Below are positions 1,478-52,866 of a DNA stretch of 64,000 nucleotides, piece by piece; position 1 is the stretch's first letter; every line of letters starts with the position of its first letter. Position numbers and translations under genes: made by a program. Source of the DNA: Pseudoalteromonas lipolytica (GTDB taxonomy: Bacteria; Pseudomonadota; Gammaproteobacteria; Enterobacterales; Alteromonadaceae); the NCBI RefSeq assembly GCF_001306915.1, contig NZ_LJTC01000010.1, positions 1-64,000 of the forward strand, in the 5' to 3' direction. The notes beneath the pieces are model-generated. The model saw only the letters and a program-made list of their open reading frames with translations, had not been told where the DNA came from and ran no database searches.

Positions 1478-4400
1478 TGATGAAACAGCAACCTATGATG
1501 GAAGACTTACCATCAATGGCGATACGTCGCCCTGTTTTAATTGTGGTACTTAACTTACTCATTATTATTGCCGGTATTGCTGCAATAGCAGGGGTTGAAG
1601 TACGTGAGCTTCCTGATGTTGATAGACCACGTATTACTGTATCAGCATCTTTCCCTGGTGGTTCACCGGAGACTGTAGATACCGAAGTAACTAGTAAACT
1701 CGAAGGGGCGGTTGCGAGGGTGAGTGGTGTAAAGTCGATTCGTGCGCAAAGTGAAGAAAACAATGCTCGTATCGTGGTTGAGTTTCGCCCTGGTGTCAAT
1801 TTAGATGATGCTGCAAACGAAACACGCGAATCGGTAGCCCGTGTGCAGCGAGAATTACCCGAAGAAGTTGAACGGGTATCAATTATTAAAGCCGATAACG
1901 ACGCCGAAGCGGTTGTATCGTTAACTGTATCAAGTGATAGCTTATCCCTTGAGGCGTTGACAGAGCGTGTTGATGTTGACTTAGCCCCGCAGTTTTTAAC
2001 CATTCCTGGTGTTGCCGATGTTCGTTTAAATGGCGATCGCGAGCGGGTTCTTAGAGTGCGCATCGACCCACTTAAGCTAAGCAGCTTTAACCTTACGGTA
2101 CCAGATATTGCCAACGTACTCCGTCAGGCTCCCTTTGATGTGCCGGCAGGTAGTTTAAAATCAAGCGATCAACAGGTGATCGTGCGTGCTGATGCAACGT
2201 CAATATCAGCAGAACAAGTAGCCGATATCATTGTACGAGACGATACCCGTATTGGCGATGTAGCAGCTGTTTATTTTGGTCCAGCTGATCCGCGTTCGTT
2301 CGTAAGGCTGAATGGTACACCTGTGATTGGCATGGAAATTATTCGTCAGGCGCAATCTAATACCATTGAAATTTCTGATGAAGTGCTAACTTTAATCGAG
2401 CGCATGAGAGTACGTTTTCCTGAAATGGAATTTACTCTAACCTCTGACGATGCGCAGTTTATCAGAAGCTCAGTTGATGAAGTTATTAACTCCTTGTTAC
2501 TAACCGTGCTGTTAGTGGTGATCACACTGTGGGTGTTTATTGGCTCATGGCGCGCAACGCTGGTTCCTGCATTTGCGATACCAGTGGCATTAATTGGCTC
2601 TTTAGCACTTATTTGGGCGCTTGGTTTCTCGATTAATATTCTTACCTTGCTTGCACTCGTGTTAGCTACTGGCCTAATTGTAGATGATGCCATTGTGGTA
2701 AGTGAAAACATCCAACGTCAGCGGGGCTTAGGTCTTGGTCGCCGTGCAGCTGCAGTGGTTGGTACCCGTGAAGTATTCTTTGCTGTTGTGGCAACAACCG
2801 CCGTATTAGCTGCGGTGTTTGTGCCTATCGCTTTTTTACCATCAACAGCAGGGCGACTATTTAGAGAGTTTGGTGGGGTATTAGCTGGCGCTGTGATCAT
2901 TTCAAGCTTTGTTGCGCTGTCTTTGGTACCTGCGCTGACATCAAAACTGAAATTAAAGCAGGGCGGTTTTCATCCATTTGCAAAAGTTGGCCATGTGTTA
3001 GCCGCTGTTTATAAACGTACAATACATGGTGTACTTGAACATGCATGGCTTACCTTTTTTGCGTGTTTGTTGGTCGCTGCAGGCTCTGGTGCACTGTATT
3101 TCAATTTAGATAACGAGCTATTACCAACAGAAGATCGCGGTAAAATTCGTATTTTTGCTCGTGGTCCTGATGGTGTTGGCTTGAACTTTATGGACAGGCA
3201 AGCGGTGCAAATGGAAGATATCTTACTGCCGTATGTTGAAAGTGGTGATATTGAGTCTATTTACACTGTGGTTGGGCAATGGGATCCAAATATTGTATTT
3301 ATTACTGTGCCGCTAAAACATTGGGACGAACGTCATTTTAGTCAGCAAGAAATTATCAATAAAATACGTGAGCCCTTAGGGAATATTCCTGGTGCGGCTG
3401 GTTACCCTGGTGGTTCAAATAGCTTGAACTTGCGTGGTCAAGGCGGTGGTATTGAGCTTGCCTTATTGGGCCAAGACTACCTCGAGATATTTAAAGCTGC
3501 GCAAGATTTCTCTGCTGAAATAGAAAAAGCAGTGCCAGAAGTGGCCCCTGTACGTATTTCATATCAGCCGTCACAGCCACAATTACGCGTTAATATTGAT
3601 AGACGTCGTGCTGAAGAGCTCGGTGTATCGCTCAGTGATATCTCTGTAACACTTCGCGCTGCAATCAATGGTGATGATATCGCCGATTTAAACATTGGTG
3701 ACCAATCAATCCCGATTATGCTGCAAGCACAAAACCAAACTATCACTAACCCAAGCGACTTAGCTAACTTGTATGTTGGTGGCCGTAATGGTCAGTTAGT
3801 GCCATTAAGTAGTGTGGCAACGATTACTGAAGAAGGTGTAGCCGCTGAGCTTGAGCGCCATGCGCAGCGCCGTGCTATTGAACTGAGCATGGAAATGCCA
3901 GAGGGCGTAACTATTGCTGAGCTGGTTACAAAAATCCGTGATATATCAGAGCAATCTCTGCCTGCGGGTATCAGCTTGGCGTTTAAAGGTGAGGCATTAA
4001 CCTTTGAGGAAACCGCCAATGAAGTATTAGTGACCTATGTTCTGGCCTTTTTAATTGTTCTTCTGGTATTGGCAGCGCAATTTGAAAGTGTGAATAGTGC
4101 AATCGTTGTTATGATCACTGTACCGTTTGGTATTACATCTGCAATTTTAGCGCTGTATCTAACAGGTACATCATTAAACATTTACTCGCAAATTGGTTTA
4201 GTGATGCTGATTGGTCTAATTGCTAAAAATGCCATCTTGCTGGTGGAGTTTGCCGACCAATTACGTGACCAAGGCCGCTCGGTTAGAGTGGCGGTAGAAG
4301 AGGCCGCACTAGTGCGCCTTCGCCCAATCGCGATGACACTGGTTTCAACTTTATTGGGTGCATTACCTCTTATTTTATCTACCGGCGCAGGGGCTGAAGC

Positions 4401-14729: not shown

Positions 14730-16007
14730 ATGACAATTAAGTCGATGTTACTGACACTATTCACTTGCAGTGCCATTTTTACCACCAGCCCAATTAAAGC
14801 TGAAACAATGCCAGATAACGCAACAGGGCATATTGAAACCATTGTGCTAGGTTCAGGTTGTTTTTGGGGAGCAGAAAAACGTTACGAAGCACTTGATGGC
14901 GTGTTGGATGCGGTATCTGGCTATGCCGATGGGCATGGTTTTAAAGCGACCTACAAGAACATAACACGTAGCTCGCGACGCTTTGATAAAAACAATTATG
15001 CAGAAGTTGTTAAAGTGACATACAACAGCAACGAGTTAACAACACAATCACTGTTAATGCATTATTTTGAAAATCATGATCCAACCCAGCTAAATCGCCA
15101 AGGTAATGATATTGGCACTCAATACCGCTCAACAATTTTGGTAAGTAATAATGAGCAACTCGAGGTTGCTAATACACTTAAAGATGAATACCAAAGTAAA
15201 TTAACCGCAGCAGGCTACGGCAAGATTGTGACTGTGATAAAACCGCTTGACGCATTTTATTCTGCAGAGGATTATCACCAAGATTATTTAAAGAAAAACC
15301 CGAATGGCTATTGCCCTGATCATTCAACGGGCGTTGTATTCACACCAGTCGAAAAACAGCAGGTTGATAACACAGCCTTATTGGCAGGTAAGCAAATTGT
15401 AGTGATAGATGCTAAAGGTTATTGCCCATACTGTGAAAAGTTTAAAAAAGAGGTCGCTAATGAGTACATGGGGACAATTCCTATGACTTTCCGACATGCT
15501 GATCAACTTGATGGTTTAACGATTAAAACGCCGACTTGGGCAACACCCACGTTATTATTTATAGAAAATGGCGAAGAGGTTTATGGTCGCCAAGGCTATG
15601 TCAGTAAAGGTGAGTTTTACAAAGCCTTAGGCGCATTTAAACTAGGTGACAGTGAAGCCTTTAGAGTTGCATTTCATGCCAGAACTGACAGCCCATTTTG
15701 TAAGCAGTACGATATCTTTAAAAATACACCCGACGGTATTTTTATTGATAAGCTAAGTGGAGCGCCGCTTTTTGATACCCGAGATAGATTTAACTCAGGC
15801 ACTGGCTGGCTTTCATTTACACATCCAGTTAAAGACAGTGTAACTATGCATGAAGACAACAGTTATGGCATGCAGCGTATTGAGCTTAAATCAAAAAGCT
15901 CTGGTATTCATTTAGGTCATTTGTTCCCTGGTGAAGGGCCAAGAGGTAAAGACAGGTACTGCATTAATGCAACAGTGCTTGATTTTGTGCCAAGAGATGA
16001 AACTTAA
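14730..16007 (+). CDS. Exported MsrA-thioredoxin-MsrB fusion
   Basis: This 425-residue protein repairs oxidised methionine in exported proteins. A signal peptide (about 1-24) is followed by MsrA with GCFWGAEKRYEAL (catalytic Cys44). A thioredoxin/glutaredoxin-like domain carries CPYC at 232-235, and MsrB carries FNSGTGWLSF and RYCIN (catalytic Cys411). MsrA reduces S-sulfoxides and MsrB reduces R-sulfoxides; the central domain probably supplies electrons. The MsrB part lacks the two CxxC zinc pairs common in MsrB (positions read IDKLSGAPLF and KSSGIHLGH). The order A-Trx-B differs from neisserial PilB (Trx-A-B). It stands alone, ended by a terminator at 16027-16050. Confidence 0.93.
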   Translation: MTIKSMLLTLFTCSAIFTTSPIKAETMPDNATGHIETIVLGSGCFWGAEKRYEALDGVLDAVSGYADGHGFKATYKNITRSSRRFDKNNYAEVVKVTYNSNELTTQSLLMHYFENHDPTQLNRQGNDIGTQYRSTILVSNNEQLEVANTLKDEYQSKLTAAGYGKIVTVIKPLDAFYSAEDYHQDYLKKNPNGYCPDHSTGVVFTPVEKQQVDNTALLAGKQIVVIDAKGYCPYCEKFKKEVANEYMGTIPMTFRHADQLDGLTIKTPTWATPTLLFIENGEEVYGRQGYVSKGEFYKALGAFKLGDSEAFRVAFHARTDSPFCKQYDIFKNTPDGIFIDKLSGAPLFDTRDRFNSGTGWLSFTHPVKDSVTMHEDNSYGMQRIELKSKSSGIHLGHLFPGEGPRGKDRYCINATVLDFVPRDET

Positions 16008-16026
16008 TAAGTTAGAACTTATTTAT

Positions 16027-16050
16027 AGCCAGCTTTCAGAGCTGGCTTTT
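16027..16050 (+). terminator. Intrinsic terminator after the Msr fusion
   Basis: Arms AGCCAGCT (16027-16034) and AGCTGGCT (16040-16047) enclose a five-base loop and are followed by TTTATATT. It sits 20 bases after the stop codon. Confidence 0.8.
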
Positions 16051-16283
16051 ATATTAAAAGCTACCTCATACAATTCTTTATTAACATAAAGTTTATATTT
16101 CAATTAATAACAATAAAATATTATTTTAAATATAGATTTCAATCATACCTTCTTATTTTTATAAGCTATTGACTAGTTAATTTAAACCATAAATTACCAG
16201 TTATATGAAAAGTCTGATCGTACCTTATATAAAAACAGTTTAGAATGCGGTATGAATACAATAGTTCATTTCATGGAGGGTAA

Positions 16284-17690
16284 ATGAATAAACAGCAATT
16301 AAATGATATTTCGTTACAAAAAATTTGGATTGGTGAGCTTAAGGATATTGATTTTTTAGTTTACGGACACGAATTCACAGTATTTAACGACGTAGAGCAC
16401 TTTTTTTCCGGTTTTGAAGCTCAATCTCATTTTCCACTTATTGTTTTTGCTGACAACATTGTAAACCAAGGCGAAGCGCTCAAGAAAATCCGTAAGCACG
16501 AACTGTTATGGCAAAGCTGTATTTTGGTAAATACGCCTTGTTATTTATCAGAAGCTCTTGCAAATGGTCTTTTTAATAAACAAAGTGATGATTTTTATAA
16601 CTCCGTAATGACGCGCGCAACTAGTTTAAATCTAAGTCTTAATTTAGTCGACTCAGCTTTAACTAAGCTTTTGTCTTTTATGTGGATTTATAAAGATAAT
16701 AGCTTGTTACCTGTTCATGATTTAAGCATTAATAGTGTTTATTATTATCCGCTTTTAGAGTGTTTCGGGGTTAACACTAAAGATGCGATGTCATGGTTGT
16801 CGAGTATCCATAGAAGAAAACTCTTACAGACAGATAAGTTAATCGACCGTGTTCGCTACTGTAGACACTGCCAATCAGGGCACTTAAATTATGTTGATTC
16901 ATGCCCAAGTTGTCAAAGTATTGATATTGCTAACGTATCTAGTTTGCACTGTTTTAACTGTGGTCATGTAAATGGCGAATCTAAATTTAAAGAGGGTATC
17001 GGGCTAAGCTGCCCTAATTGCCATACAAAATTGAGACACATTGGCGTTGACTATGATCGCCCAATAGAAAATCAGAAATGTAACCAATGCCATACTAGCT
17101 TTGTAGATGCTGACGTTATTGCTAAATGCTTCCACTGTCAGACCAGTAATCAAGTTGATGAGTTAATAGTACAGAACATTCATAGTTACAACATATCAAT
17201 GGAAGGTAAAAGTTTAATTAGACTTGGTGAGCGTTTTGACAATTTTAATTTAACCAGCACTGACTCTATTAACTATTCACATTTCGAATGGGTGGTTAAG
17301 TGGCAAAACCAACTTGCCGTAAGGCACCAGCAAACACACTCAATAGTTAAGATAGAGTTAAAAAACCTCGCGCAATTTATTGCAGAAAATGGTGAAGCAC
17401 GTGCTATTCAATTAATAGACGAATTTGAGAGCAGAATTAACGAGAGTATCAGGACCACGGATATTTGCTGTTTAGCAGGAGAGCATACATTACTTTTAAT
17501 GTTACCTAATACAACAATTGAACATTTATCCTTTGTTTATCAAAAATTAAAAGGGATTTCTTTACTCAATAAAAATAGCGATTTCTCACTTTCGATTAAA
17601 GGCATTCCACTTCCATCAAAAGAAATGCCAGATGAAATAGGTGTTTGGCTTGAGCAACAATTTGCAGCTCAGCAGGAGAGTGTTTTATGA
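16284..17690 (+). CDS. TackOD1-like zinc-ribbon regulator with degenerate GGDEF domain
   Basis: The 468-residue cytoplasmic protein has three parts. An N-terminal alpha/beta region (about 1-125) resembles a receiver or pseudo-receiver. A cysteine-rich block (about 130-290) contains repeated CxxC pairs starting at Cys193 (RYCRHCQSGHLNYVD, CPSCQS, CFNCGHV, CPNCHTKLRHIGVDYDRP, CNQC, CFHC), matching the TackOD1-type output domain as I remember it. The C-terminal part (about 330-468) has the frame of a GGDEF domain, but the signature reads AGEHT at 398-402, so diguanylate cyclase activity is unlikely. A GGAGGG ribosome binding site precedes the ATG. The stop overlaps the GT2 start by four bases, implying direct control of that synthase. 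Confidence 0.72.
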   Translation: MNKQQLNDISLQKIWIGELKDIDFLVYGHEFTVFNDVEHFFSGFEAQSHFPLIVFADNIVNQGEALKKIRKHELLWQSCILVNTPCYLSEALANGLFNKQSDDFYNSVMTRATSLNLSLNLVDSALTKLLSFMWIYKDNSLLPVHDLSINSVYYYPLLECFGVNTKDAMSWLSSIHRRKLLQTDKLIDRVRYCRHCQSGHLNYVDSCPSCQSIDIANVSSLHCFNCGHVNGESKFKEGIGLSCPNCHTKLRHIGVDYDRPIENQKCNQCHTSFVDADVIAKCFHCQTSNQVDELIVQNIHSYNISMEGKSLIRLGERFDNFNLTSTDSINYSHFEWVVKWQNQLAVRHQQTHSIVKIELKNLAQFIAENGEARAIQLIDEFESRINESIRTTDICCLAGEHTLLLMLPNTTIEHLSFVYQKLKGISLLNKNSDFSLSIKGIPLPSKEMPDEIGVWLEQQFAAQQESVL

Positions 17691-19015
17691 GTACACTAAG
17701 CACCTTAATACATATTACTGAACAAATTATGTTTTATGTACAAAGTAATATATTAGTTCTAGTAAAATTTATTCCTTTATACCTTATCTATGAGTTGCCG
17801 CTATTTTTAATAATCACGTTTGGCATAATTAAATGGACTAGAGAAAAGACACGTATAAACAATACCAAATTATTTTATTTACCAAAAGTTAGCTGTGTTA
17901 TTACTTGTTATGCAGAAGGGGATGCAGTTAAAGAAACCATTCAGTCACTCGTTGAACAAACTTACCCAGGTAAAATTGAAATTATTGCTGTAATAGATGG
18001 TGCTGTTCAAAATAACCACACTTACCATGTAGCTAAAGAATGTAAGCAGTTATTTAAACGCAAAAATCGTGAGATTGTTTTATTGCCAAAATGGCAGCGG
18101 GGAGGGCGAGTTTCAACTTTAAACGCAGGCTTATCCTATGCTAAAGGTGAAATTATCGTCAATGTTGATGCGGATACTTCATTTGACAATGATATGATGG
18201 CAAATTTAGTCAGGTTATTTGAAGACCCTAATGTACCTGCTGTGGGAGGTGCTTTAAGAGTTCGTAATGTAAATAAAACTTTATGGACTAGGATGCAAGC
18301 AATCGAATACTTAATATCGATGCAGGGTGGTAAAACTGGCTTAGCTCAATGTAATTTAATTAACAACATTTCAGGTGCATTTGGTGCATTTAGACGTGAT
18401 TTCTTAAAACAAATAGGAGGTTGGGATACTCATACTGCAGAAGACTTAGATCTAACAGTTCGTATCAAACAGTATTTTAAACGCTACCCTAATTTAAAAA
18501 TACCTTACGCGACTGCGTCGATTGCACATACAGACGCACCTCAATCATTTAAAGAGCTAGTCTTGCAAAGATTACGTTGGGACGGGGACTTGCTGTTTTT
18601 ATATTTGCGTAAACATTGGCCAGCTTTTTCACCTAAGCTTTTAGGTTGGAAGAATTTTTTGTTTACACTTTTTTATGGTTACTTGCAAAACGTTATGTTG
18701 CCATTTGTCATTTTTGTGTATTTTGTTGGGGTTGCTATTATTTATCCTTGGCAATTCTCACTAGCATTAATATTCGTCATTTATGCCTTATACCTTCTAA
18801 CTATCGGCTATTTTTATTTGTTAGTTTTAGTTAGTGTTTCAGAAAGGCCTAAGCAAGATTTTACACTATTCCTCTGGTTACCTCTCTATCCCATCTATGC
18901 ATTTATAATGCGCCTAGTATGTTGCTTTGCGCTGGTTAATGAAGTATTTCGGCGGTCGCATGAAGAGTCTAGTATGGCACCTTGGTGGGTGCTTAAACGT
19001 GGTCAAAAATTTTAG
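17687..19015 (+). CDS. Processive GT2 glycosyltransferase (BcsA/hyaluronan-synthase-like)
   Basis: The 442-residue membrane enzyme has N-terminal helix segments (about 18-48), a cytosolic GT-A domain and three to four C-terminal helices (about 315-420). Motifs of processive beta-glycan synthases are present: VIDGA, VDADTSFD near residue 160, TAEDLDL near 252 with the catalytic aspartate, and QRLRWDG near 294 (QxxRW). It should polymerise a sugar nucleotide and pass the chain through the inner membrane. No PilZ domain is present, so any c-di-GMP-type control must come from a partner. It overlaps the upstream regulator (ATGA) and is followed 14 bases later by the HlyD-type gene. Confidence 0.88.
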   Translation: MSTLSTLIHITEQIMFYVQSNILVLVKFIPLYLIYELPLFLIITFGIIKWTREKTRINNTKLFYLPKVSCVITCYAEGDAVKETIQSLVEQTYPGKIEIIAVIDGAVQNNHTYHVAKECKQLFKRKNREIVLLPKWQRGGRVSTLNAGLSYAKGEIIVNVDADTSFDNDMMANLVRLFEDPNVPAVGGALRVRNVNKTLWTRMQAIEYLISMQGGKTGLAQCNLINNISGAFGAFRRDFLKQIGGWDTHTAEDLDLTVRIKQYFKRYPNLKIPYATASIAHTDAPQSFKELVLQRLRWDGDLLFLYLRKHWPAFSPKLLGWKNFLFTLFYGYLQNVMLPFVIFVYFVGVAIIYPWQFSLALIFVIYALYLLTIGYFYLLVLVSVSERPKQDFTLFLWLPLYPIYAFIMRLVCCFALVNEVFRRSHEESSMAPWWVLKRGQKF

Positions 19016-19029
19016 ATTAAGGGAATAAT

Positions 19030-20118
19030 ATGAAATTGCATTTTAATAGCACTGCAAAGGTCAACAATCCGAACGAAGAAAAAGGAATTAAAGTTCCATA
19101 TGCTGGAGCAAAAAGAACATCACATAAATTACGCTGGTACTTTTTAATTCTGATTGCATTGAGCCCTATTTGTATTGTCGCATGGATTTATTTAGTGCCA
19201 CAACTTAAGGTTGAAGCTGTTGGTATCATTACGACTGAACCGCTTCTGATTAAAGCTCCAAGTAAAGGAACTATTGAATTTGTTGACGTTAACCTTGGTG
19301 ATTCTGTGATGAAAGATGAAATATTGCTCACATTATATAACCCTGAATTGACAGGGCAGTATCAAGAAGTTGACCGACAAATATTAAATCTAACTCAACA
19401 ACAGATACCATTTAGCAAAACAATTATGACGCAGCTAGAACAAAGAAAGCGAGTCGCAAAAGAAGGCGTTGAAAGGCAGCAAGAATTGCTTAATACGTAT
19501 AAAGATTATAAAAGCCGCGGAATAGTCCCCGTTTCTGATTTAGCAAGCGCAATAGCTGCTTTTAACAGTGCTCAATTAAGTTACGAACAGACAAAAGTTG
19601 ATATCTTGCGTGAGAAAGAGCGGCAAGAAATGGAACGCTTGTATGGATTAAAGGGGCAACGCTATCAAGATCTTTCAATTGAATTTGCAAAGTTGTCTGC
19701 ACTGCAACAAAACCTTGTTGTTAAAACTCCGTTTTCGGGAAATATTAACGATATCTTTGTGCAAGATGGTCAGTTTGTAGATCAAAACTCACCATTATTT
19801 TCAGTAGATACCGGCAGAGAACTAAGAGTTCATGCTTATCTTGCACCAAAATTTTTGGAGTATTCAAAAATAGGCCAAAAAGCGACTGTAAAACTTCCAA
19901 ATGGTAAAAAATTTGATGCTGTAATTAATGAATATACAGAGCTTACAAGTAAGATACCCCCGCAGCTTTCAGGTCCATTCGAAGGCGAAAAAGCCGCTTT
20001 AAAACTTATTTTGCAAGTAGATATTCCAGCAGAATACCATATAGAAGGATTACCTGTAGAAATTCAATTTGATCGCATCACAATGAAGGGGATGTCAGAT
20101 TTATTTGCCAAACATTAA
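19030..20118 (+). CDS. HlyD-type membrane fusion protein of the GT2 cluster
   Basis: The 362-residue protein has one N-terminal membrane helix (about 37-58) and a periplasmic part with two lipoyl halves (VNLGDSVMKDEILLTLYNPE and VVKTPFSGNINDIFVQDGQFV) separated by a coiled-coil hairpin (about 105-230), then a beta-barrel. It resembles the periplasmic part of alginate Alg44 and other adaptors paired with processive synthases, but lacks a PilZ domain. Its position directly after the synthase suggests it carries the polymer across the periplasm. No outer-membrane porin is encoded next to it. A terminator follows. Confidence 0.85.
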   Translation: MKLHFNSTAKVNNPNEEKGIKVPYAGAKRTSHKLRWYFLILIALSPICIVAWIYLVPQLKVEAVGIITTEPLLIKAPSKGTIEFVDVNLGDSVMKDEILLTLYNPELTGQYQEVDRQILNLTQQQIPFSKTIMTQLEQRKRVAKEGVERQQELLNTYKDYKSRGIVPVSDLASAIAAFNSAQLSYEQTKVDILREKERQEMERLYGLKGQRYQDLSIEFAKLSALQQNLVVKTPFSGNINDIFVQDGQFVDQNSPLFSVDTGRELRVHAYLAPKFLEYSKIGQKATVKLPNGKKFDAVINEYTELTSKIPPQLSGPFEGEKAALKLILQVDIPAEYHIEGLPVEIQFDRITMKGMSDLFAKH

Positions 20119-20124
20119 ATAAAA

Positions 20125-20158
20125 AAAGCCCGGTCAGAACACACAAGAACCGGGCTTT
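20125..20158. terminator. Bidirectional terminator between the HlyD-like gene and the small exported protein
   Basis: Arms AAAGCCCGGT (20125-20134) and ACCGGGCTTT (20149-20158) pair perfectly. The left flank is a run of A, giving a strong U-tract on the minus strand for the gene ending at 20186. The plus-strand tail (TTTCGACA) is weaker. Confidence 0.85.
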
Positions 20159-20185
20159 CGACAACAATTTGGTTGGGGGGAACTG

Positions 20186-20605
20186 TTACAGCGCTAGGTT
20201 TTGTTTTGCGCGACTTAAGTTGTGATTAACAAGTTCATTTTTTGAAATTTGCACCGCTTCATAAAAGTCAGAAAGTGCAGCAGTATCTTTTTCAGACATG
20301 ATGCGGGCAACACCACGGTTACTAAGTGCAAACGAAGTTAATTCGCGGCGTTTGTAACCAGGTACCTTACTTGTACTTAGAAGAGAAATTGCTTGTGTAC
20401 ACAGGCTTTCCGCTTCTGAAAAATTCTTTTCTTTAACGCTTAATGCACAGCGGTTGAAGGCAGTTTCGTATTGGCTAGTTGCATTATCGTTCGTTTGAGC
20501 TTGCTCAATAACCATCAGTTTATAATCAGCTTGTTTGGCTACTGCCATCGCTGAGCAAGTTAATAAAGAGCTAAGTGCAATAGTGGTTACAAGTGTTTTT
20601 AACAT
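20186..20605 (-). CDS. Small exported helical (TPR-like) protein, paralog 1
   Basis: This 139-residue protein of unknown function has a signal peptide (about 1-23, ending SAMAVA). The mature part is helical and repeat-like (YETAFNRCALSVKEKNFSEAESLCTQAISLL), with two cysteines (in NRCAL and SLCTQ) that could form a disulfide. It closely resembles the gene at 23172-23594: SFALSNRGVARIMSE and DTAALSDFYEAVQIS are identical in both. An AGAGGA ribosome binding site supports the start. Upstream at 20698-20720 lies an element shared with the paralog at nearly the same distance. The function may be cell-envelope related; I cannot assign it. Confidence 0.8.
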   Translation of the reverse strand: MLKTLVTTIALSSLLTCSAMAVAKQADYKLMVIEQAQTNDNATSQYETAFNRCALSVKEKNFSEAESLCTQAISLLSTSKVPGYKRRELTSFALSNRGVARIMSEKDTAALSDFYEAVQISKNELVNHNLSRAKQNLAL

Positions 20606-20697
20606 GATAGTTTTCCTCTGAATAAGTTGGTGTTTCTTACCAACGAGTGAACTTTAAAATATTCCCATAAGCTAAACAAACGATTAAATTAAAACTG

Positions 20698-20720
20698 ATA
20701 GATGAAGAAATTTAATCTAT
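20698..20720. promoter_or_regulatory. Upstream element shared by the two paralogs, copy 1
   Basis: ATAGAT and ATCTAT form an inverted repeat around an 11-base core GAAGAAATTTA. The same element, with one changed base (ACCTAT), lies at 23686-23708. Both copies end about 92 bases from the start codon of a paralogous gene, so this is a candidate operator or core promoter. Confidence 0.55.
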
Positions 20721-20771
20721 AGAGTAATTACTCAGGATTCGAAATTTTACTGTGATGTAGAGGAGGTGAAG

Positions 20772-20927
20772 TTGTTTTATTCCTGTATTGAAAGTTACAA
20801 ATTAGCTGAGTTGAGTGCTGATAAATTTAATGCTGTCTCTTATATAGAAATGTTATTTGGGTCCGTAAATTGTGGTTTTAAAATATATTTAGGTCAAAGG
20901 GGCACAGTCTTAATATTTGGACATTAG
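20772..20927 (+). CDS. Possible short protein, 51 residues
   Basis: A TTG at 20772 lies five bases after AGGAGG (20761-20766, within AGGAGGTGA), an almost ideal complement to the 16S rRNA end. The frame runs 51 codons (MFYSCIESYKLAELSADKFN onward) to a TAG. The product has no recognised domain. The strong ribosome binding site argues for translation; the rare start codon and unknown product argue for caution. It could be a leader peptide or a decayed gene. Confidence 0.33.
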   Translation: MFYSCIESYKLAELSADKFNAVSYIEMLFGSVNCGFKIYLGQRGTVLIFGH

Positions 20928-21042
20928 CAATTGGTTAGTAACTTTGTTAAAACTAAACATCTTTAATAACAAGAGTTTATTGTGGTACGCAGACTAGCAA
21001 TAAATTCATAATTATCATGATAAACCGTAAGAAGGAATACTG

Positions 21043-21477
21043 GTGCAAGGATATAGAATTAGCACAAATAAAACTGATCTCGATTTTGAAGTAATTTACG
21101 GTTTTATTTCAAAAAGCTACTGGGCGTCCGGAATACCAAAGCAGACGCTAGAAACGGCCATTTCAAACTCTTTTTGTTTTGGAGTCTATGACAGCTATGA
21201 TTCTCAAGTAGGTTTTGCCCGCCTTATAATAGATAAAGCAACATTTGCTTATCTTTCCGATGTATTCATAGTAGAAAGCCATCGAGGTAAAGGTTTGAGC
21301 AAGTGGCTTGTTGAGAGCATAGTATCTCACCCCGAGCTTCAAGGTTTGAGACGTATGGTATTGGCAACAAAAGATGCGCATGGTTTGTACGCGCAATATG
21401 GTTTTCAACCAATTGAAAATCCAGAGATGTTTATGCAAATTTGGAATCCAAATGTTTATCATGAGCTAGAGAAATAA
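21043..21477 (+). CDS. GNAT-family N-acetyltransferase
   Basis: The 144-residue protein has the GNAT fold signatures: AYLSDVFIVESHRGKGLSKWLVESI near residues 68-93 contains the acetyl-CoA-binding R/Q-x-x-G-x-G/A loop (HRGKGLS), and LYAQYGFQPIENPEMFMQIW marks the C-terminal strand. It transfers an acetyl group from acetyl-CoA to an unknown amine. The GTG start is supported by AAGGA at 21032-21036. It stands in an accessory patch with other short genes and has no obvious operon partner. Confidence 0.85.
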   Translation: MQGYRISTNKTDLDFEVIYGFISKSYWASGIPKQTLETAISNSFCFGVYDSYDSQVGFARLIIDKATFAYLSDVFIVESHRGKGLSKWLVESIVSHPELQGLRRMVLATKDAHGLYAQYGFQPIENPEMFMQIWNPNVYHELEK

Positions 21478-21584
21478 CAACAATTTAAAGGTTACATGGA
21501 ACCAACTACTTTTATTTTGTAGTGAACTTGCGTTTGATTGCAGTGTTATCTTATACAGGCATTAGCAAATTTAAGGACAGAATT

Positions 21585-22109
21585 ATGAAAACAGGACTCT
21601 TATCAATCGGGTTTTTAATTATATCAAATGTAAGCTTTGCTGACTGTAAAGTTGAGCTTGAAGAAAGGTTAAAAGACGATTTGAGCCTAACATACCAACA
21701 ATTTGATCAGACGTACGATGCCGGTTTTAGATTGTTAGAAAAATCAGGTTGCCATGCTGAAGCTGCCATTCTGATAAAAAGTTATATCTCTCATAATAAT
21801 TCAAATGAAAGCTCATTAACTTGGCATTTAGCTCAAATGGAAGGGTTAGCGGGTGACTATCAACAAGCGGTTTTTCACGCTAAAAAAGTATTGCATCCCG
21901 ATGAAAAGCTAAGTGGTTCAAAAATGTATTGGAATGACTTTGTACTAGGAAACATCGCTTTTTGGAATAAAGACAAAGCAAAACTAAAACAACACATAGC
22001 AAATATTGAAAAGGGGCAAAGCTTTAAACCTAACCAGATAAATCTGAACTACTTGAATCAGTTACTCAAACATTTTGATTTAAGTTACAAACAGGCATTG
22101 TCTGAGTAA
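21585..22109 (+). CDS. Exported helical-repeat protein of unknown function
   Basis: Starting at the ATG at 21585, which follows AAGGA, gives 174 residues with a signal peptide (MKTGLLSIGFLIISNVSFA). A longer frame opens at 21522 but adds an unlikely N-terminus. The mature part is helical, with TPR-like pairs (AEAAILIKSYISHNN, WHLAQMEGLAGDYQQAVFHAKKVL) and two cysteines (in DCKVE and SGCHA). No enzymatic motif is seen. It may act in the periplasm; the function is unknown. Confidence 0.7.
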   Translation: MKTGLLSIGFLIISNVSFADCKVELEERLKDDLSLTYQQFDQTYDAGFRLLEKSGCHAEAAILIKSYISHNNSNESSLTWHLAQMEGLAGDYQQAVFHAKKVLHPDEKLSGSKMYWNDFVLGNIAFWNKDKAKLKQHIANIEKGQSFKPNQINLNYLNQLLKHFDLSYKQALSE

Positions 22110-22184
22110 CCAACCACTTAGACATGAATTATCGAATCTTCAACATATTCGACTTTAACCTAACAAATAATTCTGACTATAATT

Positions 22185-23102
22185 ATGCAAATATTCTCTA
22201 AATTTCTTCTACTCTCTATCTTCATATTTGGTGTGCTTTCATTTAATGCGCTTGCTAACAAGCAGTCAGATGATTTTGAAGTCATTAATCTCGCTGATGA
22301 TTTTTATACTTTATATCAGTCAAGCAAGACGTTGACTGCAGAAAATAGAGCAGAGCAGTTTTCTCAACATTTCACCTCTCAATTTGCGCCTTTTTATAGT
22401 GATAAAAGCTTTGTTAAAGCTATTGAGGGTTTTAGTGGAATAGAAGAAGTATATTTTTCAAAAAATAGACGTTTATCTAAAGAGTTAAACAGCAGTATGG
22501 AATCATTTATTGCTACTTTCCCTGATTTCAAATCTGAAACCCCCATTTACATGCTTCACTCATTAGGAAGGTTCAATGGGGCAACGCGAGAGTTAAATGG
22601 TAAGACTTACTTAATGTTTGGTGTAGACCTTATGACCAAGTATCATACCTGGAAAAACGATACGCCATTCTTTCATCACGAGTTATTTCACGTTTATCAT
22701 GAAAAATTATTTCAATGTAAGGATGAGCTATGGTGCTCTATTTGGACTGAGGGATTAGCTACTTACGTTTCACATAAATTAACTCCGTCAGCCAGTGATG
22801 ATGAATTGATGCTAAACATACCTAGCAATTTGGTGAAAAAGATTCGAGCAAGGCAGCTCGATTCTTTCGTTGACCTTAAGAAAAAGTTTTACTCAAAAAA
22901 AACTGAAATATATTCTTCATTTTTCAACTTCGCAAAGGACGAGACAAAGCTGCCATACCGAAGAGGTTATTACCTAGGTTATATTTTAGCTAAAGAAATT
23001 GGCAAGAATTACAGCTTAGAGCAATTGGCTAAAATGGATAAAAAGACAGTAGAGAGCCTATTGCTAAAAGAACTTGATTTATTGATAAAAGCGGAAGACT
23101 AA
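22185..23102 (+). CDS. Predicted exported zinc metallopeptidase (gluzincin-like)
   Basis: The 305-residue protein has a signal peptide (about 1-24, ending NALA). A zinc-binding HELFH motif (HExxH) lies at 165-169, and a glutamate in WTEGLATYVSH lies at 189, 20 residues after the second histidine, as in gluzincin peptidases. I do not recognise the family with certainty; it recalls DUF2268-type predicted proteases. Upstream residues (about 40-130) are helical. No clear ribosome binding site precedes the ATG. It converges on the small exported paralog through a shared terminator. Confidence 0.65.
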   Translation: MQIFSKFLLLSIFIFGVLSFNALANKQSDDFEVINLADDFYTLYQSSKTLTAENRAEQFSQHFTSQFAPFYSDKSFVKAIEGFSGIEEVYFSKNRRLSKELNSSMESFIATFPDFKSETPIYMLHSLGRFNGATRELNGKTYLMFGVDLMTKYHTWKNDTPFFHHELFHVYHEKLFQCKDELWCSIWTEGLATYVSHKLTPSASDDELMLNIPSNLVKKIRARQLDSFVDLKKKFYSKKTEIYSSFFNFAKDETKLPYRRGYYLGYILAKEIGKNYSLEQLAKMDKKTVESLLLKELDLLIKAED

Positions 23103-23121
23103 AAAACGAAACACCTAAACG

Positions 23122-23149
23122 ACAAAACCCAGCCGAAGCTGGGTTTTGT
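23122..23149. terminator. Bidirectional intrinsic terminator
   Basis: Perfect 12-base arms (23122-23133 and 23138-23149) with GC-rich centre CCCAGC/GCTGGG and a CGAA tetraloop. It serves the peptidase gene on the plus strand and the paralog gene on the minus strand. Confidence 0.9.
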
Positions 23150-23171
23150 GACAACACAATTTTGTGAAAAC

Positions 23172-23594
23172 TTATAATGCTAAGTTCTTTTTCGCACGCG
23201 TTAAGTTGTGCTCTACTAGCTCGTTACCTGAAATTTGTACTGCTTCGTAAAAGTCAGACAATGCAGCAGTGTCGTTTTCAGACATGATTCGAGCTACACC
23301 GCGGTTGCTTAATGCAAATGAGGTTAATTCACGACGTTTATAAGCAGGTACCTTGCTCTTGCTTAGTAAGCTGATTGCTTTAGAGCAAAGTGTTTCAGCT
23401 TCTTTAAAATTCTTTGCTTGAACACTTAATGCGCATTGGTTAAATGCTAGTTCGTATTGGCGATTTGTTTCTACTGTTGCTTGTGTAGATTGATCAATAA
23501 CCATTAATTTGTAGTCACTTTGATCAGCCACTGCCATAGCTGAACAAGTTAATAATGAGCTAACTGCAACGCGTTTCATAAGTGTACTAAACAT
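23172..23594 (-). CDS. Small exported helical (TPR-like) protein, paralog 2
   Basis: Starting at the ATG at 23594, seven bases after an AGAGGA ribosome binding site, gives 140 residues; a longer frame to 23624 lacks a site. A signal peptide (about 1-24, ending SAMAVA) precedes a helical domain almost identical in layout to paralog 1, including paired cysteines (in QCALS and TLCSK) and the shared SFALSNRGVARIMSE. The upstream element at 23686-23708 matches that of paralog 1 at the same distance. The function is unknown. The pair brackets three unrelated genes, which suggests duplication followed by insertion or rearrangement. Confidence 0.8.
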   Translation of the reverse strand: MFSTLMKRVAVSSLLTCSAMAVADQSDYKLMVIDQSTQATVETNRQYELAFNQCALSVQAKNFKEAETLCSKAISLLSKSKVPAYKRRELTSFALSNRGVARIMSENDTAALSDFYEAVQISGNELVEHNLTRAKKNLAL

Positions 23595-23685
23595 AATCAT
23601 TTCCTCTATTTGAGTCGGTATCAATCGCCGACAAATGAACTTTAATTGAACACTGCAAATTCAACAAACGATAAAAAATGACCTA

Positions 23686-23708
23686 ATAGATGAAGAAATT
23701 TAACCTAT
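23686..23708. promoter_or_regulatory. Upstream element shared by the two paralogs, copy 2
   Basis: ATAGAT, core GAAGAAATTTA, then ACCTAT: identical to copy 1 at 20698-20720 apart from one base. It lies 91 bases before the start at 23594. Confidence 0.55.
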
Positions 23709-23741
23709 AGACTTTAGTCTAATGTAATGAGTTAGTCTTAT

Positions 23742-23797
23742 AGCTATCAGCTATCAGCTATCAGCTATCAGCTATCAGCTATCAGCTGTCAGCTGTC
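23742..23797. repeat. Tandem 7-bp repeat, eight units
   Basis: Six copies of AGCTATC are followed by two copies of AGCTGTC with no gaps. There are no spacers, so this is a simple tandem repeat and not a CRISPR. Copy number is likely to vary between strains by replication slippage. Confidence 0.95.
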
Positions 23798-23804
23798 TGA
23801 TCTG

Positions 23805-23830
23805 TGATCTGACCCCGATAAAGTAGACAC
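23805..23830. repeat. Possible solitary IS3/IS150-like terminal repeat
   Basis: The 26 bases start TG, contain CTGACCCCGATAAAGTAGAC and resemble ends of IS150-group elements as I remember them. No transposase frame or partner repeat is nearby, so this would be a solo end or remnant. Confidence 0.25.
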
Positions 23831-23980
23831 AGGGTTTAAATAGGTAATGTTTACGATAAAGAACAATATAGGAGTAGAGTACGCAAAACAAACAAATTGT
23901 TGTTAATTAAAAATAAAATCGGTACTTTATGATGGTATGTATAGTTGATGACTTAATTTATTCAGAATAAGCGTATAACC

Positions 23981-24433
23981 ATGAAACTGATATTTGCGTT
24001 GTTACTTTTAGGGCCTGTTATTGCCAATGCAGCTGAAGATAAAGTCGCTGTTTATCTTAATTTTGAGCAGGCTTATTTGAGCAATGATGTATCTTTGTTT
24101 ACGCCATTATTAAGTAAAAACTATACGATTAGACAAACAGTGCATATTCCAGGCATAGGGTCAGATACTGTGCCTGTTACTAAAGCTCAGTTACTTGAAG
24201 GCATGAAGCAAAATCCTAAGCCTAGTTCATTACCGCGCTCAAAAGCTGAATCAGTTAAAATAGAAACAATTTCAAAACAGCATTTCTGTGCACGTTCACA
24301 AACTCTAGATCAAGTCGTCGTGGTAGGTAAAAACTACGAAGAGAAGGAACTAAGAAAAGCGTGTTTTAAACACGAAAATAACAGCTATGAAGCTATATCA
24401 CATACCATTGATGTGTATTATCGAGAGCTTTGA
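23981..24433 (+). CDS. Exported protein of unknown function, 150 residues
   Basis: A signal peptide (MKLIFALLLLGPVIANA) precedes a domain beginning DKVAVYLNFEQAYLSNDVSLFTPLLSKNY, whose layout (helix, helix, sheet) recalls SnoaL/NTF2-like folds. Two cysteines (in HFCAR and KACFK) may form a disulfide. I cannot name the family. A ribosome binding site is not obvious. It is followed 98 bases later by another small exported gene. Confidence 0.65.
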   Translation: MKLIFALLLLGPVIANAAEDKVAVYLNFEQAYLSNDVSLFTPLLSKNYTIRQTVHIPGIGSDTVPVTKAQLLEGMKQNPKPSSLPRSKAESVKIETISKQHFCARSQTLDQVVVVGKNYEEKELRKACFKHENNSYEAISHTIDVYYREL

Positions 24434-43136: not shown

Positions 43137-44957
43137 GTGAATCCCAAACAAATCCGCAATTTTTATATCAATGAAGAGCAGTCTGTTTATTTGCTGTCTC
43201 ACCATGATGCTAAAAAGCACCGTCAATGGCTTAACATTTGTATTAAACAGCTTACTTTGCTTGGTTACAGTTACGTTGAATTAATTGGTTCTGGTGCGTT
43301 TGGATTTGTTTTTGCCGGTGTTGATGATGAAGACCTACCTTGGGTATTTAAGTTTTCACGGATAACCCTTGCACAAAGTGTACGTGATCGTCTAGAAGAC
43401 GAAGCGTACATGCTCTCGCAAGTTAATAATCCGCTGGTGCCAAAATTTTATGCCTTTGAACGCATTAAAAAGCAAGGCATTTTAATGATGGAGCGGGCTC
43501 TAGGTGAAGACTTAGAAAAAATTTCCATCAAGCAGGGGCGTTTTAGTGCAGCAAAAGTCATGGCGCTTGCTCTTAGGCTACGTAATGTGCTGGTAGATTT
43601 ACGTGAACACAAAAATGGCTTAAGCCCACAGCCTATTGTACATGGCGATATTAAACCCTCTAACATTGTTTATGATGAACAAACTAATAAGTTGTCGTTG
43701 GTAGACTGGGGCAGTTCTGTTTATGCACAAATAGATGCTGAAGGTAATCCGGTTGCTAGCAACTTTATGGATCTTATGTCTGCTGATATAAGCACAACCA
43801 ATGCACGTATGGGTGATGTGTATTTTATTGGTGATGAGCAAATGTCGGGCGGGCAGTCATCGCCACGTTTTGATGAGCAAGGTGTTGCTTCAACTCTTTA
43901 TGCACTGGCATCTGCACAATCTTGCCGATTTGGTGCGGCGGTTATTCCGGCTACAAGCCTGAATTTACCTATGGAGCTTGCCCGGGTTATTGACGGTATG
44001 CTTTCAAAAGATAAGGCAACCAGAGATGGCGCTGGTGATTATTTTATGCGAAACATGCCTACAATGGCTAAAGCTTACCTCCCTGAGCTGCCCCGTAAAG
44101 TCATTCGCCCTTATATCCCTTATTGGTTTAGTGAGTTTGATGAACACCCAGACACGGTAGTTTATAGCTCACGTAAACAATTTTTAAGACAAGCGGACCA
44201 TAATCAACAATTACTTGATGTAAACGATGCCCAGCTCGACAGGTACTACAAAGAGTTTTTATTTGATACCGGCGACACCGAAAAAGCATTTTTGGCCTCT
44301 ATTAGCCGATTAGCAAAATATCCGGTAGTAGGGGGCCTTAGTTTTCATTGGAAAGAAAACTCACTGTTTGTTGAATCATCACTTATCCTGCATGATGAAA
44401 CACTTGGTACAGCCTTTACCGATGCCATTAACAACACGGTGATGTTAGCACAGGGGATTGAACAAAAAGGTCTCTTTAAATGTTGTTTGTTTGATGCGCG
44501 TAAGACCATTCAGCTCGAACGTGATGGCACAGGTGCGTTTAAGTTTGAGAATTTACCTGAGCTTGATTACGAAGTAATGGATGTACAAGCCTCAGACGTA
44601 ACCAGACCGCATTCGTACTTTGAAGATGGTAAAGACCCTGATGAGCAATTACAGCTCCCGAAAAAGGTTATAAAGTGCGTATTTGAGCTAAACCAAATAC
44701 ACCATACAGGCTGTATTATTTTTGAAGCCTTACCTGATAGGATGAAGATACACCATTACTATCGTCTGCTAGATGCCAGTAAAGAACCAGAATTTAAACG
44801 TTTATTAAGTAAGCTCATGCAATACGCGGTTAATATCACAGATGTGGGTGTAGCAGGATTTATGAAGCTACCTTACAAGAATACTCGTGAATTTGATTTG
44901 TGTACTAAACAGCCCGATGAGTTTTATCCGCGAGACCCAAAAAGAGCTAAATGCTAA
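43137..44957 (+). CDS. Ser/Thr protein kinase-like protein with long C-terminal domain
   Basis: The GTG at 43137 (after GAGAG) gives 606 residues; a TTG at 43125 is also possible. The N-terminal kinase domain has a glycine loop IGSGAFGFVF (near residue 50), a lysine in PWVFKFSR, catalytic loop HGDIKPSNIV (near 169) and metal motif VDWGSS (near 188) in place of DFG. The arginine of HRD is replaced, so it is a non-RD kinase. The following 300 residues have no recognised domain and no membrane helix. Its substrate and signal are unknown. It leads into RDD and lipoyl-domain genes. Confidence 0.78.
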   Translation: MNPKQIRNFYINEEQSVYLLSHHDAKKHRQWLNICIKQLTLLGYSYVELIGSGAFGFVFAGVDDEDLPWVFKFSRITLAQSVRDRLEDEAYMLSQVNNPLVPKFYAFERIKKQGILMMERALGEDLEKISIKQGRFSAAKVMALALRLRNVLVDLREHKNGLSPQPIVHGDIKPSNIVYDEQTNKLSLVDWGSSVYAQIDAEGNPVASNFMDLMSADISTTNARMGDVYFIGDEQMSGGQSSPRFDEQGVASTLYALASAQSCRFGAAVIPATSLNLPMELARVIDGMLSKDKATRDGAGDYFMRNMPTMAKAYLPELPRKVIRPYIPYWFSEFDEHPDTVVYSSRKQFLRQADHNQQLLDVNDAQLDRYYKEFLFDTGDTEKAFLASISRLAKYPVVGGLSFHWKENSLFVESSLILHDETLGTAFTDAINNTVMLAQGIEQKGLFKCCLFDARKTIQLERDGTGAFKFENLPELDYEVMDVQASDVTRPHSYFEDGKDPDEQLQLPKKVIKCVFELNQIHHTGCIIFEALPDRMKIHHYYRLLDASKEPEFKRLLSKLMQYAVNITDVGVAGFMKLPYKNTREFDLCTKQPDEFYPRDPKRAKC

Positions 44958-44995
44958 AAGCTGACTAAATTAAAGCAGTAAGGAGAATAACAAAC

Positions 44996-45667
44996 ATGGA
45001 CTACACCCCAAATTATAAAAATTATTCATTGAATGAGCTTCTAGATGCTCAAAAATATATTGATAAAGATAGCTTCCCACAAAGAGCACAAGAGTTAGAA
45101 TTAGAGATAGCAAATAAAATAAAAGACCCAGAAATAAAAGCAGAGTTTGAAGAGCTAGAAACGAGTAAAAGGTATGCTACTTTTTGGCCTCGTTTTTGGG
45201 CCGCGATTATTGATGGTTTAATATTTACAGCATTACTTTATATTGAATGCTTACTCTTTGGCGTTGAATACTCTAACCAAAACATGGTTTTACAAGCCGT
45301 TAATGGCGTTCAGTATATTGGCTACGTTGTTTTTATGCATGGGTTTTATGGCCAAACTCTTGGTAAGATGGTGATGGATGTTAAAGTCCTCGATCATGAC
45401 ACTGAAACAGATATTAATCTTAAACAATCGGTTCGCCGAGAATCTGTAAATATTGCTATTAACTCATCTTGGATACTACTACTTTTATCTATTTCAATAT
45501 CGTTACAACAACTCGGTAGCATACATGAGTTTTTAACTTATTTAATTATGGGTTTGAGTTCTTTAGCTACACTATGGGCATTGTCAGAATTTATAACCAT
45601 GCTGTTTAATGAAAAGCGTCGTGCAATACATGACTTCATAGGTAAAACGGTTGTTGTTAGGTTGTAA
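44996..45667 (+). CDS. RDD-family integral membrane protein
   Basis: The 223-residue protein has a charged N-terminal helix region (about 1-58) followed by an RDD domain: RFWAAIIDGLIFTALLYIEC (first helix), GFYGQTLGKMVMDVKVLD (conserved loop) and two more helices near 155-205, ending NEKRRAIHDFIGKTVVV. RDD proteins are inner-membrane proteins of mostly unknown role, some linked to ion transport. AAGGAG precedes the ATG, 38 bases after the kinase stop. The co-location suggests a shared membrane process. Confidence 0.82.
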   Translation: MDYTPNYKNYSLNELLDAQKYIDKDSFPQRAQELELEIANKIKDPEIKAEFEELETSKRYATFWPRFWAAIIDGLIFTALLYIECLLFGVEYSNQNMVLQAVNGVQYIGYVVFMHGFYGQTLGKMVMDVKVLDHDTETDINLKQSVRRESVNIAINSSWILLLLSISISLQQLGSIHEFLTYLIMGLSSLATLWALSEFITMLFNEKRRAIHDFIGKTVVVRL

Positions 45668-45681
45668 TAAGGAGCGCGACT

Positions 45682-46080
45682 ATGTCAATCCCAATAAAAA
45701 TACCTGAATTACCAAATGATATTGGCGATGTTAAGGTAGCAAATGTTCATGTAGATGTTGGCGATATTGTTTTAGTTAATTCCCCCCTCTTTGATATAGA
45801 AACAGATAAAACAATATTAGAAATTCAAGCGTCTGAAGCAGGTGAAATTAGTGAATTTAAGGTTAAAGCTGGGGATTATGTTACTGCTAACCAAGTAGTT
45901 GGGATGATGTTACCTGATGAAAACGCTGAAATTAGATTTGTTCACTCTACACCGAAGGAAAATGCTACTTCTAAAGTAAACACCTCAGATAAAAAGAGTA
46001 AGAACCATCAAGTTCAACATTATTGGCTGCTAGTTCTTTTTTTTGTGGCTATTGTAGGTATTATTTATACAAGTTTGTAA
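45682..46080 (+). CDS. Stand-alone lipoyl/biotinyl domain with C-terminal membrane anchor
   Basis: The 132-residue protein starts with a complete lipoyl-type domain (about 1-78: VHVDVGDIVLVNSPLFDIETDKTILEIQA by pieces) in which the ETDK turn places Lys43 where E2 subunits carry lipoate. A polar linker (about 80-108) and one hydrophobic helix (YWLLVLFFVAIVGIIYTSL) follow at the very C-terminus. It is not part of a dehydrogenase operon; its neighbours are an RDD protein and a kinase. Whether Lys43 is modified is unknown. A good AAGGAG ribosome binding site lies 15 bases after the RDD gene. Confidence 0.82.
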   Translation: MSIPIKIPELPNDIGDVKVANVHVDVGDIVLVNSPLFDIETDKTILEIQASEAGEISEFKVKAGDYVTANQVVGMMLPDENAEIRFVHSTPKENATSKVNTSDKKSKNHQVQHYWLLVLFFVAIVGIIYTSL

Positions 46081-46211
46081 CTGAGAAGATGATGTTATTT
46101 GGCTTTTAACAGGTGTATTTAAAGCTAAACAATGACCAAATGATAATTAATGGAATCTTTATTTTAAAGAGAACTCTGAGTTAATAAGTAAAACCTTAAA
46201 ATGAAAAATTC

Positions 46212-46237
46212 AATAACCTGCTAAATAGCAGGTTATT
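46212..46237 (-). terminator. Terminator after gloA
   Basis: Arms AATAACCTGCT (46212-46222) and AGCAGGTTATT (46227-46237) pair perfectly around AAAT. It lies just after the gloA stop on the minus strand. Confidence 0.8.
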
Positions 46238-46249
46238 AAAGGGGCAGCC

Positions 46250-46780: not shown

Positions 46781-46915
46781 ACACATCCTTTTTAGCTGAT
46801 ATTTCTGGTAATATAATTAGTCTAACATATTCACGTTACCCTTAAATTAATAACAAATATTTTTGATGTGCTAAGACAAATCTTCAGTTCTTAATTTGCT
46901 AACCCAAATAAAAAA

Positions 46916-46931
46916 CCGCCCAAACAGGCGG
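46916..46931 (-). terminator. Terminator after the VF530-type gene
   Basis: CCGCC (46916-46920) pairs with GGCGG (46927-46931). On the minus strand the hairpin is followed by six T. Confidence 0.75.
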
Positions 46932-46963
46932 CTTATTTCATCTTACAGCTCAAAGCTTAAAAA

Positions 46964-47380: not shown

Positions 47381-47563
47381 ATCATGCTCTTGTTTATTGT
47401 TTACGTAATTAGTTAATTATAATTTGAAAGATCTAATTTAGATACCGCTTATCAATTTGATATACGAACCATTTTAAAAGTTTACATGTTTACCTTATAT
47501 GGGTAATCTATGCGCTTGAATTGGCATGAGGCTAATTTATTAAATTGATTAAGGAATCTATAA

Positions 47564-48130: not shown

Positions 48131-48143
48131 ATTCTTTTTTTAA

Positions 48144-48170: not shown

Positions 48171-48177
48171 AAATCTA

Positions 48178-49167: not shown

Positions 49168-49178
49168 GTTGACTCCTT

Positions 49179-52861: not shown

Positions 52862-52866
52862 AGACT

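Follow-up and report, generated by a model that had tools for sequence, protein, structure and literature searches.

Does a compact three-gene unit of Pseudoalteromonas lipolytica, encoding a cysteine-rich regulator, a family 2 glycosyltransferase (GT2) and an HlyD-type protein, follow a control logic of its own, or does it belong to a polysaccharide system already tied to cyclic diguanylate (c-di-GMP)? The unit occupies positions 16284 to 20118 of a 64,000-nucleotide stretch of contig NZ_LJTC01000010.1, referred to here as the window. An initial annotation, made from the sequence alone, had described a synthase-dependent system lacking PilZ and had proposed a control different from that of c-di-GMP-regulated synthases. 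By sequence homology the trio is the mxdABC core of a known operon, the mxd operon of Shewanella oneidensis MR-1, with the same gene order, and it very probably forms the central part of an Mxd exopolysaccharide system in which a degenerate-GGDEF c-di-GMP receptor exerts control. The open reading frames (ORFs) and the domains of the regulator are as follows.

16284–17690, + strand: MxdA-type regulator ORF, 468 amino acids; receiver-like domain, TackOD1 and degenerate GGDEF
16320–16622, + strand: receiver-like N-terminal domain, residues ~13–113; the model shows strands and helices in alternation
16650–17195, + strand: TackOD1 domain (PF18551), residues 123–304; Cys/His residues are presumed zinc ligands
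17274–17669, + strand: degenerate GGDEF domain, residues 331–462; profile and fold matches to diguanylate cyclases
17451–17462, + strand: RxxD motif (R390-T-T-D393), predicted c-di-GMP site
17687–19015, + strand: MxdB-type GT2 synthase ORF, 442 amino acids
19030–20118, + strand: MxdC-type HlyD periplasmic adaptor ORF, 362 amino acids

Homology with the mxd operon of Shewanella oneidensis

The reference locus was found via the mxd promoter primers published for MR-1 (PMC3691769), the gene-specific parts of which were trimmed to 15, 21, 23 and 15 bases. With one mismatch allowed, one of these parts was found, as an exact match, in a single genome (locus L115) of 129 from Shewanella. On the reverse complement of L115 all four parts match exactly and in order, at 2301, 2427, 2581 and 2715, and the last ends 5 bases before a TackOD1 ORF (2735–4123) that is followed by a GT2 gene and then an HlyD gene. 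Because the published primer parts match directly upstream, this locus was taken to be the mxd operon of MR-1. The three genes stand in the same order as in the window and each is homologous to its counterpart there, with identities to the L115 (MR-1 type) proteins of 38.7% over 447 residues for MxdA, 64.5% over 442 for MxdB and 40.4% over 349 for MxdC.

Published work on these genes bears on function. Deletion of mxdA or mxdB in S. oneidensis abolishes aggregation, and mxdB mutants form no three-dimensional biofilm; the same source terms MxdC efflux-pump-like and MxdD without known homology (PMC3691769). S. oneidensis MxdA has been reported to bind c-di-GMP and to contact both CheY3 and the cyclase PdgA, and polysaccharide synthesis is probably triggered by MxdA (PMC7666153, PMC11395469, both citing Gambari 2019). 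Three CheY homologues were compared, and the biofilm was restored by just the two that bound MxdA (PMC7666153). A degenerated GGDEF domain in MxdA has been described as well (PMC3409153). The word TackOD1 is absent from PMC7666153, and neither Mxd nor Shewanella is mentioned in the available text of PMC8461298, a review on c-di-GMP control of exopolysaccharides, a silence that carries little weight.

Conservation of the three-gene core

The TackOD1 gene is present in a single copy in the window's genome. Among 274 genomes drawn from the class, 20 gave any match to TackOD1, 14 exceeded the Pfam cut-off and 12 were strong (E < 1e-50, the window's own included). In 11 of these 12 strong-match genomes this GT2 gene adjoins that of TackOD1, the exception being L004 (the same place as L025); the adjacency of regulator and GT2 exceeds chance. 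A scan of named genomes yielded at least 581 relatives, of which the best 80 were kept; the 96 loci compared here are these 80, 11 from class genomes and three from genus genomes, with the window and the MR-1 type locus added. These include near-duplicates, with identical synthases in L034/L137 and in L082/L085.

Regulator, GT2 and HlyD genes lie on one strand in 93/96 loci, so that the grouping first noted in this one genome proves to be a conserved one. Two of the three exceptions (L081 and L095) run into contig ends and the third (L025) has the regulator alone. The order is regulator-GT2-HlyD in 58 loci and regulator-GT2-further gene-HlyD in 28, with 10 variants or incomplete loci. A quick maximum-likelihood tree was built from 91 synthases (L025, L081, L032, L059 and L048 left out) and gave long-branch warnings; in it the window synthase groups with its own genus and then, in a 15-row clade marked with a star, with Idiomarina, Rheinheimera and Shewanella (L115 included).

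Across the 96 loci, no cluster of at least four loci looked like a dedicated fourth gene of the three-gene form. The largest neighbour cluster (23/96 loci) was rejected as a core partner: its members are scattered over both sides and both strands and resemble a chain of signalling proteins.

Several genomes carry two mxd-type operons. In Aliivibrio fischeri emors.2.1 they lie on one contig, ~14 kb apart (L061, L062), Aeromonas veronii CECT 4257 also has two (L088, L099), and the pair in a BD1-7 bacterium (L082, L085), with its identical synthases, is perhaps an assembly duplicate. L030 and L031 show a divergent form, in which the adaptor precedes the regulator and the synthase sits on a very long branch.

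The MxdA-type regulator

An AlphaFold2 model of the regulator, built from 41 sequences of which 40 were picked from the 80 named regulators with a 62% identity filter, has a predicted local distance difference test score (pLDDT) of 86.9 and a predicted template modelling score (pTM) of 0.78, and can be read as three parts: receiver-like, TackOD1 and GGDEF-like. No hydrophobic segment was found at the threshold used. Residue counts below refer to 94 regulators, L032 and L041 having been dropped from the 96 for weak or split frames.

The C-terminal part is recognizable as a GGDEF domain by fold rather than by its motif. The Pfam GGDEF model scores 21.8 bits at residues 332–418, below the cut-off of 23.8; a profile of the domain finds SadC (4wxo) at 5.5e-10 and also SiaD, DgcR and PleD, and VIA-align superposes it on the GGDEF domain of DosC with Z 15.2, 142 aligned residues and a root-mean-square deviation (rmsd) of 2.7. 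The GG[DE]EF motif, the mark of an active diguanylate cyclase, occurs in 0/94 regulators. In five profile alignments, two of them to SadC constructs, the arginine and aspartate of the regulator fall in register with those that precede GG(D/E)EF, while GG(D/E)EF itself is lost. R390, D393 and R347 are each conserved in 93 of the 94 sequences and W340 in 92; the sole exception for RxxD (L028) has a broken frame. R347 lies near what is presumably the position of the secondary I-site arginine of PleD, which offers a lead. The regulator is thus most likely of the degenerate-GGDEF receptor type, with the fold and the RxxD I-site kept and GG[DE]EF gone, and is predicted to bind c-di-GMP; in the window protein RxxD would be the binding site.

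In the L115 protein (ORF 2735–4123) the letters NVDEF, which we take to be the published modified GGDEF motif of MR-1 MxdA, stand ~30 residues before RxxD and align with the DxDxFK region, not with the active-site loop. The old assignment of NVDEF as the GGDEF motif may therefore be misplaced, to judge from the alignment.

At the N-terminus, nine of 50 VIA-align rows for the regulator, all DgcR, PleD or WspR (the names of entries 3bre and 9g8x being partly presumed), span residues 9–11 to 468 with 246–253 aligned and rmsd 9.7–22.4; they were taken as a receiver and a GGDEF domain in a different mutual placement in the model. The receiver phosphoacceptor position, 56, is not conserved (N 27, D 22, S 16 and A 13 of 94).

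The central domain matches Pfam PF18551 with 217.8 bits against a cut-off of 32, and ten of its Cys/His positions are invariant in 94/94 regulators: C196, C207, C210, H222, C226, C243, C246, C266, C269 and C282. The description of a cysteine-rich regulator with a dead GGDEF domain holds across these 94 sequences. Archaeal TackOD1 proteins have the same Pfam domain and CxxC motifs; they differ in architecture, occurring as TackOD1, receiver (REC)-TackOD1 or REC-winged helix-turn-helix (wHTH)-TackOD1, some in type IV pilus loci, and no GGDEF is listed among them in the available text (PMC5847659). The functions of TackOD1 were called obscure there in 2018. Within the openly licensed literature the name was found in that paper alone and the long name of the domain gave no match, which is weak evidence; the occurrence of TackOD1 inside a c-di-GMP receptor looks to be a new link.

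Receptors with a degenerate GGDEF domain are known from the Pel (PelD), Bacillus subtilis Yda (YdaK) and cellulose (BcsE) systems (PMC8461298 among the sources). Like MxdA, they belong to polysaccharide systems, lack the catalytic motif and keep RxxD, and BcsE shares with MxdA a degenerate receiver-GGDEF tandem. They differ from MxdA, which carries TackOD1 between its receiver-like and GGDEF parts; PelD and YdaK moreover have membrane helices. Since the unit is an mxd homologue, MxdA is a reported c-di-GMP binder and RxxD is near-invariant, the control of this system does not appear to be free of c-di-GMP, and the proposal of a different control logic is not sustained.

The synthase and the adaptor

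The conserved residues of processive GT2 enzymes are an aspartate, the DxD motif, an ED pair and QRxRW. In the window synthase these are D104, D161xD163, E252-D253 and QRxRW at 294–298, and they are kept in 90–92 of 92 synthases (L025, L081, L032 and L059 left out). The Pfam GT2 model scores 84.8 bits, and hydrophobic stretches cover residues 16–34, 331–386 and 394–414. Among NCBIfam models PgaC/IcaA ranks best with 144.6 bits, far under its cut-off of 422.3. The adaptor matches HlyD_3 (50.6 bits) and also HlyD_D23, with a single hydrophobic stretch at residues 33–59. The assignment of a processive-type GT2 and a periplasmic adaptor in the initial annotation therefore stands, as does the absence of PilZ: Pfam found none in regulator, synthase or adaptor at E up to 1. 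The product is most likely a polysaccharide.

The arrangement resembles that of alginate, where the GT2 synthase Alg8 is joined by a periplasmic membrane-fusion protein, Alg44, under c-di-GMP control (PMC8461298). In alginate, however, the receptor is a PilZ domain on the Alg44 adaptor, whereas the presumed receptor of the window is a separate protein.

A further gene in relatives and a possible outer-membrane route

In 28/96 loci the synthase and adaptor genes are separated by a further gene, whose product has TolC-like parts, TIM-barrel parts or both. It is present in 26 of the best 80 of at least 581 named loci, mostly from Pseudomonas, beta-proteobacteria and desulfobacteria. Five of the encoded proteins were scanned. 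In three of them (L023, L077 and L083) the first two thirds match OEP (TolC-like), whereas the last third matches nothing over a Pfam cut-off. L104, the fourth, consists of the last part alone, and L107, outside the five, resembles it. The fifth, from the divergent L031, has no OEP match; the operon of L031 begins with a 699-amino-acid protein that weakly matches the outer-membrane/TIM-barrel fusion. On the synthase tree the label changes four times between the three-gene and further-gene forms, an approximate figure, since L030 is labelled three-gene though its relative L031 weakly matches the fusion. OMFGH matches in L054 and L058 were considered as further genes and left uncounted, being separate outer-membrane proteins more than 5 kb away.

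Modelled from 20 sequences, the L104 protein takes the form of a TIM barrel of eight alternating strands and helices, with mean pLDDT of at least 92 in each ten-residue block over residues 91–330; D195 and E197 are invariant in the 20 sequences. VIA-align matches to the barrel are mostly glycosidases (Cwp19 with Z 18.8, a GH18 chitinase with 17.4, PgaB with 17.0), and the first rows in Foldseek are isocitrate lyase and human O-GlcNAcase. Because many folds rank closely, it is called a glycosidase-like TIM barrel only. The likeness to the PgaC/PgaB system of poly-N-acetylglucosamine (PNAG) extends to the best NCBIfam model of the synthase and to PgaB among the many folds matched by the barrel; it ends at the low PgaC/IcaA score and at the barrel's usual fusion to a TolC-like domain. 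The fusion appears to be a new candidate for an outer-membrane component.

A search of 22 genomes, aimed at an unlinked copy of the barrel, found the barrel in 3/3 positive controls and in 0/19 genomes of the three-gene form, the window's included (G445 and G510 among them are possibly one species). The hope of a nearby outer-membrane partner is thus borne out in some relatives by a candidate and not in the window. TolC-type proteins are available in the window's genome (14 OEP domain matches, 13 over cut-off), none of them tied to the unit.

A 670-amino-acid outer-membrane protein of the same genome looked promising as a partner and was set aside, since it appears to be a TolC-OmpA protein neighbouring an ABC transporter and an adaptor of type I secretion. 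At 247–8453 of L131, also from this genome, what looks like such a secretion set (TolC-OmpA protein, adaptor and ABC transporter) lies beside a LapD-like membrane protein. All these names were given by eye.

Proposed mechanism and alternatives

In the mechanism that we favour, MxdA would act as a cytosolic receptor in which c-di-GMP made elsewhere binds to the RxxD motif of the dead GGDEF domain. The bound form would switch on or assemble the synthase, perhaps via TackOD1. MxdB would be a processive-type inner-membrane GT2 synthase, and MxdC, a membrane-anchored periplasmic adaptor, would hand the growing chain on to a channel in the outer membrane. In the window's genome this channel may be another, perhaps shared, TolC-type protein; in many relatives the operon-encoded TolC-like/TIM-barrel fusion could serve. 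It is possible, if on balance somewhat doubtful, that this picture extends further: that TackOD1 is the coupling module between c-di-GMP binding by the dead GGDEF domain and synthase activation, that MxdA stands for a large and little-studied class of receptors, and also that the ancestral path had four parts (receptor, GT2, adaptor, and a TolC-like channel with a polymer-trimming glycosidase), of which Shewanella, Vibrio and Pseudoalteromonas would have a reduced form that relies on a general TolC.

Three points weigh against assigning the unit to a c-di-GMP-controlled Mxd system. The operon of MR-1 is named mxdABCD, and no mxdD-like gene was found in the window: the 122-amino-acid ORF after mxdC of L115, taken for mxdD, has no tblastn match there at 1e-2. 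As this ORF has no match at that threshold in the other loci compared either, other Shewanella included, mxdD looks to lie outside the conserved core. Rakshe 2011, as cited, had MxdA affecting c-di-GMP levels indirectly. Finally, no outer-membrane partner adjoins the unit in the window.

Control by partner proteins, with CheY-like proteins or a partner cyclase driving the receiver-like and TackOD1 parts and c-di-GMP only stabilizing the complex, is quite unlikely as the main switch. It draws on the contacts of S. oneidensis MxdA with CheY3 and PdgA and on the restoration of biofilm only by MxdA-binding CheY homologues (PMC7666153), and the two readings are not mutually exclusive. Only 8/95 loci, four of them close Aliivibrio relatives, have a gene with an intact cyclase motif no more than 3 kb from the unit. 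There were 12 cyclase motif matches in 535 kb within that distance and 5 in 822 kb farther away; because 8 of the 12 come from the four close Aliivibrio loci, nothing firm follows about nearby cyclases.

Control independent of c-di-GMP was the leading reading until the locus was tied to mxd, and was then dropped. In its specific form, with the cysteine-rich TackOD1 as the real zinc or redox sensor and the GGDEF remnant as a structural element that needs no c-di-GMP, it is now very unlikely. The ten invariant Cys/His positions would suit a sensor, as would the occurrence of archaeal TackOD1 alone or with a receiver domain (PMC5847659); invariant CxxC pairs, however, fit plain zinc ribbons, R390, D393 and R347 are the most conserved C-terminal positions although the catalytic motif is gone, and c-di-GMP binding is reported for S. 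oneidensis MxdA (PMC7666153, PMC11395469). Extremely unlikely is a non-processive glycolipid enzyme accompanied by an HlyD protein from an unrelated efflux pump: the synthase does score 46.6 bits to the HpnI glycolipid model, but it scores higher to PgaC/IcaA and to NodC (78.5 bits), QRxRW and ED are near-invariant, HlyD is present in 93/96 loci, and mxdB mutants of S. oneidensis form no three-dimensional biofilm (PMC3691769).

Layout and surroundings of the unit

The ATGA overlap, the gap of 14 bases from the synthase stop to the adaptor start and the three ORFs were confirmed in the sequence. The smaller features are as follows.

16275–16279, + strand: GGAGG, likely ribosome-binding site of the regulator, read from the sequence
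17687–17690, + strand: ATGA, regulator stop overlapping synthase start, from the ORF list and the sequence
20125–20158, no strand assigned: convergent terminator hairpin, -15.5 kcal/mol on one strand and -17.8 kcal/mol on the other

The terminator that was said to close the unit is present as a stable hairpin, at 20125–20158, with a z-score of -5.8 (for -15.5 kcal/mol) and 0/200 shuffles equally stable on either strand. Its ownership is another matter: the U run that follows is long only when read on the - strand and is short on the + strand, which suits the convergent TPR gene (20605–20186, - strand) at least as well, and the hairpin most plausibly serves both that gene and the unit as a convergent terminator. 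It has no entry in the consensus terminator scan, which accepts loops of 3–8 only.

The TPR gene product (20186–20605, - strand), named for weak TPR matches, and that of 23172–23624 (- strand) are two similar small proteins with signal-like starts, ~3 kb apart. Just 5' of the unit, 14730–16007 (+ strand) encodes MsrA, a thioredoxin-like domain and MsrB fused in one protein. The GC content of 16000–24000, the unit and the next 4 kb, is 0.35 against 0.40–0.44 on the flanks; 44000–64000 is also low (0.36–0.39). TackOD1 occurs patchily in the window's genus, in 4/108 genomes, which together with the low GC may point to gain by lateral transfer or to repeated loss.

Implications

The mxd-type operons, described for Shewanella, occur also in Vibrionaceae, Aeromonas, Pseudomonas, desulfobacteria and others. 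The comparison names R390 and D393 as residues at which c-di-GMP control can be probed, offers a candidate outer-membrane component for mxd systems, and places TackOD1, whose function had been called obscure, in a physiological setting.

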